Source: Sandaracinaceae bacterium
GTDB taxonomy: Bacteria; Myxococcota_A; Polyangia; Polyangiales; Sandaracinaceae
Reading direction: 5' to 3'
Length of the DNA: 64,000 nt
Assembly: GCA_040218145.1 (NCBI GenBank)
Contig: JAVJQK010000127.1
Span: 1 to 64,000 of the forward strand
A program made the position numbers and the translations under genes. The notes beneath the pieces are model-generated. The model worked only from the letters and a program-made list of their open reading frames with translations, was not told the DNA's origin and made no database searches. Numbering within the stretch: the first letter of the stretch is position 1; each line of letters opens with the position of its first letter. Below, piece after piece: positions 22,574 through 26,500 of the stretch.

Positions 22574-24331
22574 ATGCTCGAGAGGTCCCGGGAACGAGAC
22601 AGCGAGCTGAGGCCGAACAGGACGCTCGCGCGAACCCGAGACCTCGCGATAGGCTCTGCGGCGGAGGCGAGGTTCTTGCTGAGTATCGACGCGGTGGAGC
22701 GGCGCTTTGCGGAGCGCGACTGGAACGACCTCGAAGACGTCGCGACGGCGACGCTTCGCGAGGCGGGCACCGAAGAGGGGCTGCGTGCGCTCGCGCGTGT
22801 GGCCCGCGCACGCGCCGTCGAAGGGCACCCGGAGGACGCGGCGCGGCTCGCGCACGCCGTGCTGTGCGCGGTCGACCCCGAGGCCGCGGACGAAGGTGAA
22901 GACGAGGGCAGCTACCAGCGCCTGCAGACGCGTACCTGGGCGCGGTGGAGTCTCCAGGTGCTCGTGCGCGAGGCGCCCGATGGGCTCGCGATCGACGCCC
23001 TGCCGGAGTCGGACCGCGAGTCGGTCGCCCCGCCGGAAGCGCCGCTGGATGTCCCGCCTCCCTCGGACCTCGACGCGCTCGAGGCCCAGATCGACGCGCG
23101 CCTCCCCATCGACGACGGAATCGCCTTCGCGGACGCCCTCTGGGCGTCCGTCCGCGCGATCGAGCGCTGCGAGAAGGACGGCCTCGGCGCGGCGGTGATG
23201 CGGGCCAGCCGCGTGGTCCTCGGCCGCTACGAGAAGGCCATCCGCACCGTCAGCGACGAAGGCGAGCTGGCCCTCACGCCCTTCCAGCGCACGCTTCGGC
23301 GGGCCTTGCTGCGCGCCTGGCAGTCCGCGCCCGACGACGACAAGGAGTACCGCGAGACGCGTGAGTGGATGCTCGCCGAGCGCTCCGGCGCGGTGCGCAT
23401 CATCGACTTCGATCCCGACGCGATGACCCTGCGCGCGCGGGAGGCGCTGCTCGCCGCGCTCGAGGAGAAGCACGAGCGGGCTCGGACGACGATGCGCTAC
23501 GCGTTTGCGATGCTCCACTTCGGCAAGGGGCTCATCGACGAGGAGCGCTACGTGTCGCTCGCGCGCGACCTCGGGGCCACGACCACCCTGGTCGACGTGC
23601 TCATCGAGATGGGCCGCGGCGGAGAGGCGGCGGAGGCGGCGCTCGACGCCGTGCGCGGCGAGGCCGGGCCCGGTCACCTCGAGGCGCTCGCGATCGCGAA
23701 GCAGCTCGACGAGGCCGGCGAGACCGACGCGGCCATCGAGCTGATGCAGGTCGTCACCAAGGACAGCCTCGAGTCGAGCTGCGATCACTGGCTCGCGCAG
23801 CGGCTGAGTGATCTCGGCCGCGACGAAGAGGCGCTCGCGGTGCTCGAGCGGCGCTTCCACAAGCGCACGGGGCTCTCGACCTACGCCGAGCTGCGCGAGC
23901 ACGCGCCGGAGAAGGCGTGGCCCGCGCTCCGCGAGAAGATCATGGAGCGGCTCGCCCAGCGGCGCCTGCACCGCGTGATCATCGACATCGCCCTCGAGGA
24001 GCGGGACGGTGAGCTGCTCGAGGCGCACGCGAAGGGCCTCGACGACGGTCAGCGCGAGTACCTCGCGGGCCGCCTCGACGTGCACCAGGACCTCTTCGAG
24101 CCCGCGTTCGTCGCGAAGCTCATCGCCTCGCTGGCGGTCAGCAGCAATGGGCAAGTCGTCTTCCGGCACGCGAGCGTGCCTCCGCCCGCGCGCGTGCGGC
24201 ACGCCAAGTACGGCGTGGGCGACGTCGTCAGCCACGAGGGCGAGGGCGAGGAGCGCAAGCTCACGATCGAGTTCAAGACCTTCGGGACGAAGACGATCCT
24301 CGAGCGCTTCGTCAAGCCGGTCACGGACTGA
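22574..24331 (+). CDS. Helical-repeat protein with C-terminal Tudor/UvrD-tail-like domain
   Basis: About 585 aa from ATG 22574; the frame is open upstream but overlaps the divergent radical SAM gene. Most of the protein is Ala/Leu/Glu-rich helical repeats (TPR-like stretches around 320-420, e.g. LVDVLIEMGRGGEAAEAALDA and AIAKQLDEAGETDAAIELMQ). The last 50 residues, VRHAKYGVGDVVSHEGEGEE then KLTIEFKTFGTKTILERFVKP, resemble the beta-barrel at the C-terminus of UvrD/PcrA helicases that contacts RNA polymerase. This suggests a transcription/repair adaptor and fits its divergent position from the radical SAM/UdgX pair. The function is inferred; it overlaps the convergent TetR gene by 11 bp. Confidence 0.75.
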   Translation: MLERSRERDSELRPNRTLARTRDLAIGSAAEARFLLSIDAVERRFAERDWNDLEDVATATLREAGTEEGLRALARVARARAVEGHPEDAARLAHAVLCAVDPEAADEGEDEGSYQRLQTRTWARWSLQVLVREAPDGLAIDALPESDRESVAPPEAPLDVPPPSDLDALEAQIDARLPIDDGIAFADALWASVRAIERCEKDGLGAAVMRASRVVLGRYEKAIRTVSDEGELALTPFQRTLRRALLRAWQSAPDDDKEYRETREWMLAERSGAVRIIDFDPDAMTLRAREALLAALEEKHERARTTMRYAFAMLHFGKGLIDEERYVSLARDLGATTTLVDVLIEMGRGGEAAEAALDAVRGEAGPGHLEALAIAKQLDEAGETDAAIELMQVVTKDSLESSCDHWLAQRLSDLGRDEEALAVLERRFHKRTGLSTYAELREHAPEKAWPALREKIMERLAQRRLHRVIIDIALEERDGELLEAHAKGLDDGQREYLAGRLDVHQDLFEPAFVAKLIASLAVSSNGQVVFRHASVPPPARVRHAKYGVGDVVSHEGEGEERKLTIEFKTFGTKTILERFVKPVTD

Positions 24332-24932
24332 CGGGTGGGCTGACGGGCGCGAGCATCCTCAGGACGTTCTCCGCCACCGCGCCCGCGTCGTGGGGCACGT
24401 CGAGCTCGGTCGCGATCTCGGTGCCCAGCACGAGCGCCAGCAGCAGCTGCGCCACCGCGTCCGCGTCCAGGTCTGCGCGGACCGTCCCCGCCTCCTGCCC
24501 GCGCCGCGCCGTGATCGCCAGCCGCGCGCGCGCCTGCTCGATGAGCTCCAGGTAGGTCGCGTGGAGCTCGGGAGAGCGCGCGCAGGCCTCGAGGATCTGA
24601 TGCGGCCGCACCTCGCCGCGGAAGGGGAACGCGCCGCTCTTCACCGCGATGGCGAAGGTGCGCACGATGGTCGCGAGGTCGGCGCCTGCCTCTCCGGCCA
24701 TGAGGATCGCGTCGATGAACCCGCCCATGATCTTTTCGACCACCGCGACGATGAGGTCGTCCCGGCTCGAGAAGTGGACGTAGAACGCGCCGCGCGTGAA
24801 CCCCGCGTGCTTGCAGATCGCGTCGAGGCTCGGGCCGCCGAGGCCCTCGCGCGCGAAGAGCTCCGTGGCCGCGTCGATCAGCCGCGCCCGGGTCTTCTCC
24901 GCCGCCTCGGCGCGCGTCTTCGTCGTGGTCAC
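24321..24932 (-). CDS. TetR/AcrR-family transcriptional regulator
   Basis: 203 aa. The N-terminal helix-turn-helix (about 14-60) is canonical: TRARLIDAATELFAREGLGG, then SLDAICKHAGFTRGAFYVHFSSRDDL. The remainder is the helical ligand-binding/dimerisation domain, ending in a Pro/Ser tail that overlaps the convergent gene's 3' end. It is divergent from the AarF/UbiB-type gene, and the 161-bp gap between them carries two nearly identical palindromes (24970-24989, 25034-25053), so it likely represses itself and that gene. The inducer is unknown. Confidence 0.93.
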   Translation of the reverse strand: MTTTKTRAEAAEKTRARLIDAATELFAREGLGGPSLDAICKHAGFTRGAFYVHFSSRDDLIVAVVEKIMGGFIDAILMAGEAGADLATIVRTFAIAVKSGAFPFRGEVRPHQILEACARSPELHATYLELIEQARARLAITARRGQEAGTVRADLDADAVAQLLLALVLGTEIATELDVPHDAGAVAENVLRMLAPVSPPVSP

Positions 24933-24969
24933 GCCTTGACTTACGAGGCCGGAGGGCTCACATCAAGGC

Positions 24970-24989
24970 CACATACGAGCTCGTATGTG
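24970..24989. promoter_or_regulatory. TetR-type operator 1 (perfect 20-bp palindrome)
   Basis: CACATACGAG followed by its exact reverse complement, CTCGTATGTG. It is AT-richer than its surroundings, lies 38 bp upstream of the TetR start codon and matches operator 2 in both outer half-sites. This is the strongest regulatory signal in the window. Confidence 0.8.
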
Positions 24990-25033
24990 AAATCTCAGGG
25001 TCCAGCCCTCGCCCCATGAATCACGGGCGAAAC

Positions 25034-25053
25034 CGCATACGAAATCGTATGTG
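25034..25053. promoter_or_regulatory. TetR-type operator 2 (near-perfect palindrome)
   Basis: CGCATACGAAATCGTATGTG repeats operator 1 with changes only at its second base and the centre. The arms CATACGA/TCGTATG are perfect around a central AA. Its centre is 64 bp from the centre of operator 1 and the site ends 40 bp upstream of the AarF/UbiB start, so each divergent promoter has its own site and looping or cooperative binding is possible. Confidence 0.75.
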
Positions 25054-25093
25054 AGGTGAAATGCGGGCCCCGAAGCCGACGTAGGGGACGAGC

Positions 25094-26500
25094 ATGACGA
25101 CGATGGTCGGGGTGGCGCCGACGGGCGCCGAGGATGGACGAGACATGAGCGTGAGCGAGGGGAAGGGCCTGCCCCAGCTGCCGGAGGTTTCGGCGTGGCG
25201 GATGGTCTCGCGGGCCGCGCTGGTGACCGCGGTCTTCGTGTGGTTCGTCTCCCTGCGCCTCCTCGATCTGGTCGGGCTGCGCTGGCTCGCCTTCACCCTC
25301 ACGGGCCAACGCGCGCGCTACGAGCGGCTGAGCGGCCCGGTCGCCTTCCGCCGCGCGTTCGAGGTCCTCGGCCCGACCTACGTCAAGCTCGGCCAGCTCG
25401 TCGCGTCCGGCGAGGCGCTCTTCCCCGAGCGCTACAGCGAGGAGTTCCGCAAGCTCCTCGACCGCGTGCCGCCCTTCGACTTCGCGGACGTGGAGCGCAC
25501 CATCGAAGCCGACGTCGACGGCGCGGCCGCGCGCTTCGCCTACATCGATCCTTCGCCCATCGCGGCGGCGAGCATCGCGCAGGTGCACGCGGCCACCCTC
25601 GACGACGGCGAGGAGGTCGTCGTGAAGGTGCAGCGCCCGGGCATCGGAGAGCTCGCCGCGGCCGACATCGCCCTGATGCGCATCTTCGCCCGCGTCGCGC
25701 ATCGGGTCAGCCTGCACGCGCGCCGCGCGAACGCGCTCGCCATCATCGAGGACTTCGAGGCGAACCTCGTGGAGGAGCTCGACTTCCGGAACGAGGCCGG
25801 GCGCATGCGCGAGTTCAACCAGGTGATGAAGGCGATGGGCACCGACAGCGTCGCCGCCCCGCGCATCGAGGACGACCTGAGCGGCCCGCGCGTGCTGACG
25901 ATGGAGCGCTTCGACGGCTGGCGCCTCGACGACACCGCCTCGATCCTCGCGAGCGACTTCGACGCCGAGGAGCGCCTGCTGACGGGGATCCGCGCCTGGT
26001 TCCAGACCCTCATCTGCAAGGGGTTCTTCCACGGCGACGTGCACGCGGGGAACTTCCTCCTGCTGAAGGACGGCCGCATCGGCTACCTCGACTTCGGCAT
26101 CGTCGGCGTCTTCACCGAGGACCAGAAGAAGAACGTGCTCGAGTACGTGCTCGGCTTCCAGAGCCGCGACTTCGAGCGCGTGGGCCGCTCCATGCTCGCC
26201 ATGGGCGTGACGGACGAGTCCAAGATCGAGTTCGACGTGTTCGTCGTCGACCTCACCGAGGCCTACGCCCCGCTCATCGACGGCCGCAAGATGAAGGAGC
26301 TGATCCCGAACATCATGCGCGTCGGCCGCAAGCACCAGCTCCGCATGCCGCGCGATCTGGTGCTCGTCACCAAGCAGCTCGTCTACCTCGACCGCTACAG
26401 CCGCGCGCTGGGCGGCGAGGGCATGAACGTCCTGACCGACCAGCGCCTGAGCAACCTGATCATGCAGGACATGCTCGCGGCGATGTTCGCCCCGACCTGA
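25094..26500 (+). CDS. ABC1/AarF/UbiB-family atypical kinase
   Basis: 468 aa. One hydrophobic segment near the N-terminus (about 40-58) anchors a UbiB-like kinase: the family KxGQ motif YVKLGQLVASGEALFPERY, the Ala-rich loop AAASIAQVHAATLDDG, ATP-anchoring Lys in VVVKVQRPG, LVEELDFRNEAGRM, then FFHGDVHAGNFLL and LDFGIVG. All residues of a functional ABC1 kinase are visible. Related proteins support ubiquinone synthesis or handle lipids. TetR control and the absence of other quinone genes here point to a regulated lipid or stress role rather than housekeeping. ATG 25094 has GGGGA upstream; 25145 is an alternative. Confidence 0.92.
   Translation: MTTMVGVAPTGAEDGRDMSVSEGKGLPQLPEVSAWRMVSRAALVTAVFVWFVSLRLLDLVGLRWLAFTLTGQRARYERLSGPVAFRRAFEVLGPTYVKLGQLVASGEALFPERYSEEFRKLLDRVPPFDFADVERTIEADVDGAAARFAYIDPSPIAAASIAQVHAATLDDGEEVVVKVQRPGIGELAAADIALMRIFARVAHRVSLHARRANALAIIEDFEANLVEELDFRNEAGRMREFNQVMKAMGTDSVAAPRIEDDLSGPRVLTMERFDGWRLDDTASILASDFDAEERLLTGIRAWFQTLICKGFFHGDVHAGNFLLLKDGRIGYLDFGIVGVFTEDQKKNVLEYVLGFQSRDFERVGRSMLAMGVTDESKIEFDVFVVDLTEAYAPLIDGRKMKELIPNIMRVGRKHQLRMPRDLVLVTKQLVYLDRYSRALGGEGMNVLTDQRLSNLIMQDMLAAMFAPT

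Follow-up and report, generated by a model that had tools for sequence, protein, structure and literature searches.

The window (the whole 64,000-nucleotide stretch analysed here) contains a tetR gene and a divergently oriented aarF gene separated by a gap of 161 bp. The gap has a GC content of 59%, against 72% across the window, and its coordinates confirm what the earlier note had reported: two near-identical palindromes, one of them perfect, lie 64 bp apart (centre to centre) between a tetR gene and an AarF/ABC1 gene. A third, decayed copy, termed site 0 here, had escaped that note. The genes, sites and predicted promoter elements are as follows.

24321..24932, minus strand: tetR, 203 amino acids, GTG start, predicted leaderless; Pfam TetR_N PF00440, 6e-14
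24936..24941, plus strand: predicted aarF -35 TTGACT, overlapping site 0 and the tetR -10; TTGACA is conserved here in relatives with a divergent gene
24938..24943, minus strand: predicted tetR -10 TAAGTC, 5 nt ahead of the GTG
24939-24956: site 0, the decayed operator, with sequence ACTTACGAGGCCGGAGGG; it agrees with the consensus at 11 of 16 positions, and its centre is exactly 32 bp from site 1
24959-24964, plus strand: possible aarF -10 CACATC, weak
24961..24966, minus strand: predicted tetR -35 TTGATG, 17 bp from the -10, assigned by comparison of relatives
24971-24988: site 1 operator ACATACGAGCTCGTATGT, perfect palindrome; with its flanks a 20-bp sequence, CACATACGAGCTCGTATGTG (24970-24989)
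25035-25052: site 2 operator GCATACGAAATCGTATGT, one mismatch, 64 bp from site 1 and within the predicted leader of aarF
25094..26500, plus strand: aarF, 468-amino-acid ABC1/UbiB-superfamily atypical kinase; Pfam ABC1 PF03109, 4e-61, 207 bits

Taken as a 20-mer (25034-25053), site 2 reads CGCATACGAAATCGTATGTG, in which 8 of 10 positions pair, and it is 41 bp from the aarF start. ACATACGA and TCGTATGT are separated by 2 bp and not by the 1 bp given previously. The pattern ACATACGANNTCGTATGT, with up to three mismatches allowed, has exactly two matches in the 64-kb window, sites 1 and 2, against an expectation of 0.02 from 100 shuffles, none of which contained two. CATACG-N4-CGTATG occurs twice in the whole 11.06-Mb genome, both times at this locus (reversed control, 0), and a genome search at two mismatches returned background only. 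The scan for a wider regulon proposed in the earlier note thus yielded no sites beyond the two described here. The score of site 0 is reached at only four positions in the window (site 0 included, the two operators excluded), and its flanks, CTTGAC...CACATCAAG, are those of the intact sites in genomes G174 and G178. Judged by these sequences, site 0 holds the place of the tetR-proximal operator of relatives, over the predicted tetR -10. The assignment of one site to each divergent gene is not supported: compared with relatives, site 1 lies just upstream of the predicted tetR -35, the tetR-proximal site is the decayed site 0, and site 2 falls within the probable aarF leader.

The aarF upstream region also holds a seven-codon frame (MRAPKPT-stop, 25061-25084) with a Shine–Dalgarno-like GAGGTGA, ending 9 nt ahead of the aarF start. 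It may be a chance frame or a leader peptide, and is not obvious in sister genera. Separately, contig C14 of genome G000 carries, at about 137.8 kb (L003 1501, 1599 and 1676), three near-identical copies of GCCGCAGACGAGTTTGTATAGATG in steps of 77-98 bp that are unrelated to the tetR/aarF operators.

The tetR product scores 52 bits against PF00440 (cut-off 24). Its AlphaFold model (pLDDT 86.4) has the all-helical TetR fold with a C-terminal ligand and dimer domain, and the best fold matches are TetR proteins, with Z about 17 over 180-190 residues. The fold search singled out no ligand class, the model resembling many TetR proteins with varied ligands. By sequence, the nearest solved relative is CprB (1ui5, 4pxi); the score against the ScbR family model NCBIfam NF041196 is 73.4 bits, below the cut-off of 150. 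The recognition helix, TRGAFYVHF, is nearly invariant across the alignment of the clade to which this protein belongs, and the genome of the window encodes one member only of that clade at E < 1e-20.

The aarF product combines the ABC1 domain with the KxGQ motif, Ala-rich loop, catalytic Lys, HGDxHxGN and DFG of an ABC1/UbiB-superfamily atypical kinase, with the catalytic and signature motifs KLGQ, AAAS, VKVQ, ELDFRNEA, HGDVHAGN and DFG all intact, and it matches solved ABC1 proteins and COQ8/ADCK3. It reaches 282 bits against the UbiB equivalog TIGR01982, below the cut-off of 487.55; the genome has eight strong ABC1 genes, the most UbiB-like of which is another paralogue (417 bits). A search of the genome for the quinone-pathway proteins UbiG, MqnA and menD found no UbiG match above cut-off (best 58 against 103 bits), no MqnA, and menD above cut-off. 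This combination would point to menaquinone; a paper on quinone distribution held no usable statement on Myxococcota quinones. We also considered aarF as a housekeeping UbiB gene, the role that the earlier note took to be normal for UbiB. The sub-cut-off score, the eight paralogues and the presence of menD without a UbiG-grade match speak against this assignment, and aarF is probably not a housekeeping UbiB.

A general promoter scan found no sigma-70-type site at the locus, so our promoter assignments rest on comparison of relatives. The arrangement TTGATn-N17-TATGTC-N5..7-(A/G)TG recurs on the tetR strand in Polyangiales homologues, and the geometry of predicted tetR promoter, operator and start codon is fixed in about ten homologues, which suggests that the tetR transcript is leaderless and that its -10 lies within the proximal operator. 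On the divergent strand, TTGACA occurs at the edge of the proximal operator and is missing beside tetR in G175 and G176, where no divergent gene was seen; it is likely to be the -35 of the divergent gene. In the window, the tetR -10 is predicted to persist as TAAGTC though the proximal operator has decayed.

The tetR–aarF arrangement with operators recurs across the Sandaracinaceae. The earlier note had named absence of the palindromes upstream of orthologues as grounds for abandoning its proposal, and an operator pair is in fact present upstream of the aarF orthologue in all eight Sandaracinaceae genomes that have one. These genomes represent five genera and are therefore not eight independent events. 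Outside the family we found nine aarF homologues, eight of them testable, and none of the eight has an operator pair. In G175 and G176, tetR and aarF are on different contigs and each gene retains its own operator pair. The Sandaracinaceae TetR proteins form one clade in the tree (support 100/98) with those of G175 and G176 nested inside it, indicating that the linkage is probably ancestral and was broken later in these two genomes. The retention of a separate pair by the unlinked aarF is our strongest argument that aarF is itself a target. The operator pairs of relatives are about 32 bp apart and site 2 is confined to the two genomes from this species, which, together with the decayed site 0, identifies the 64-bp pair as a derived arrangement and not the ancestral layout. 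Its conservation among relatives makes it almost certain that the circuit is real.

Two Sandaracinus genomes (G180 and G181) encode a second TetR protein from this clade elsewhere in the genome; the half-site there is identical, and the operators of the pair are 30 bp apart (L204 4673-4720, near 10.24 Mb in G180; also L205). Cross-talk of this second TetR with the aarF operators is possible in Sandaracinus-group genomes.

The half-site ACATACG is common to this TetR clade in Polyangiales and Gammaproteobacteria: the same motif is found at TetR homologues (roughly 38-50% identity) in other Polyangiales and at relatives in Marinobacter, Alcanivoracaceae, Oleispira, Moraxellaceae and strain HdN1. 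Spacing within pairs is mostly 31-34 bp, most commonly 32, with exceptions at 19, 29, 30 and 37 bp; in several homologues there is a single site or none. Among the divergent neighbours are fatty acid desaturases, short-chain dehydrogenases (SDRs), flavin monooxygenases and a family of about 190 amino acids, and the targets of the clade outside the Sandaracinaceae would mostly be lipid or redox enzymes.

Several further observations concern these loci. The family of about 190 amino acids, which has no Pfam match among the members scanned, repeatedly adjoins this operator type, often divergent from tetR (L012, L027, L028, L031, L096, L106, L118, L155, L204). Two contigs titled as a Klebsiella pneumoniae metagenome-assembled genome (CAMBZJ010000016.1 and CAMBZJ010000039.1; L113, L150) carry TetR, desaturase and AurF-like genes with myxobacterial-type operators, and the species label looks wrong. 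A looser scan also returned pairs of a sister motif, CCATACG-N4-CGTATGG (for example L050, L054, L074, L080, L099), with taxon-specific spacing of about 24-28 bp in actinobacteria and about 38-47 bp in alphaproteobacteria; these were set aside as lacking this TetR clade at the cut-off used.

We consider it likely that the tetR product is an autoregulated, effector-released repressor of its own gene and of the divergent aarF gene, acting at overlapping divergent promoters. The sites, their conservation, their uniqueness and their link to aarF are features of the sequences themselves; from them we infer what is set out below on DNA binding and repression, on cooperativity, on where the promoters lie, and on the ligand and the role of the kinase. 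TetR dimers would bind the palindromic operators (half-site ACATACG(A)) over the overlapping promoters, turning both genes off. Release would come from a small molecule that is most likely hydrophobic (a fatty acid, an acyl-CoA or a compound active on membranes), so that the kinase would be made only on demand. A lipid-like effector is our best guess and is based on the neighbours of relatives, not on this locus. Multiples of about 10.5 bp place dimers on the same DNA face. The two dimers of relatives, about 32 bp (three helical turns) apart, would share a face, an arrangement compatible with cooperative binding. The window has a decayed proximal site, and its aarF leader carries an extra site 64 bp, or six turns, further downstream; sites 1 and 2 probably carry repression in this species. 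With one ancestral site decayed, repression of tetR may be altered.

The palindromes might instead serve tetR autoregulation only, with aarF a bystander that has its own promoter. Site 0 does cover the predicted tetR -10, with site 1 abutting the -35, and the G175 and G176 tetR genes have a pair with no divergent gene in sight, but the unlinked aarF genes of the same two genomes retain their own pair with TTGACA at its edge, and site 2 is close to the aarF start; we regard this explanation as improbable. Binding of the sites by some other regulator, encoded elsewhere and sharing the motif, seems to us very improbable. Although G180 and G181 have the second same-clade TetR noted above, and other regulators seem to use CCATACG-N4-CGTATGG, the single clade member in the genome of the window and the co-occurrence of the motif with this TetR clade in distant genomes both argue for the linked gene product.

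The sign of the control is a separate question. TetR proteins can also activate, and sites 1 and 2 are not clearly over a strong aarF promoter, so that the protein could be an activator or mixed regulator of aarF; one TetR protein, AtrA, is reported to activate a divergent gene (PMC3511530). The sites of relatives, however, overlap with the target's predicted -35 and with the region where its transcription starts, a placement that suits blocking. Divergent genes less than 200 bp from a TetR gene are generally its targets in Streptomyces, and the five Streptomyces TetR proteins tested with such gaps all repressed (PMC3511530). The overlap with predicted promoter elements and these Streptomyces tests make repression likelier than activation, and we give activator or mixed control a low probability.

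Among the matches listed from the open-access literature searched there is no report of TetR control of an AarF/ABC1 gene, and the search of that literature gave no named TetR operator of this sequence. ABC1 kinases are widespread, and to our knowledge the job of most bacterial members is unknown. For a kinase under a dedicated effector-controlled repressor, the releasing signal would hint at the conditions that call for the kinase and at the reason for it, and the conserved operator code allows targets of this TetR clade to be predicted in many genomes. We tentatively propose, at slightly less than an even chance, that one fixed operator code, a pair of ACATACG-N4-CGTATGT sites usually 31-34 bp apart and read by a single recognition helix, is common to a TetR subfamily that extends over Myxococcota and Gammaproteobacteria. 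This subfamily would control enzymes that modify lipids, and in the Sandaracinaceae it would have captured an ABC1 kinase, which would then belong to an inducible membrane-lipid response and not act as a housekeeping quinone factor.

One close known parallel is offered by the CprB/ArpA-type γ-butyrolactone receptors of Streptomyces. CprB-bound DNA begins ACATACGG, and the CprB consensus DNA, which starts ACATACGGGAC, has the half-site ACATACG in common with the operators here (PMC4150764). CprB likewise places two dimers on one operator, an occupancy that we propose here from sequence. The CprB dimers lie on opposite sides of a single 22-bp element, whereas the palindromes here are separate and about 32 or 64 bp apart, and the tetR product falls outside the ScbR/CprB subfamily (73 against the NCBIfam cut-off of 150). 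With DesT/FadR-type lipid regulators the likeness is one of context, relatives of this TetR clade adjoining fatty acid desaturases, SDRs and flavin monooxygenases, whereas the protein appears from its model to share only the general fold with them. The aarF product has the ABC1 domain and all signature motifs of UbiB/COQ8/ADCK3 kinases and differs in falling below the UbiB equivalog cut-off and in being one of eight paralogues in a genome with menD and no UbiG-grade match. In genetic layout the locus resembles TetR/tetA, EthR/ethA and QacR/qacA, in which a repressor and its divergent target flank a short intergenic region containing the operators (161 bp here, with autoregulation likewise proposed), but it has two separated full palindromes and its target is neither a pump nor a monooxygenase. 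The system is well conserved and functionally plausible, and its kind, a probable TetR repressor facing a divergent target gene, is an ordinary one; its unusual point is that this target is an ABC1 atypical kinase.
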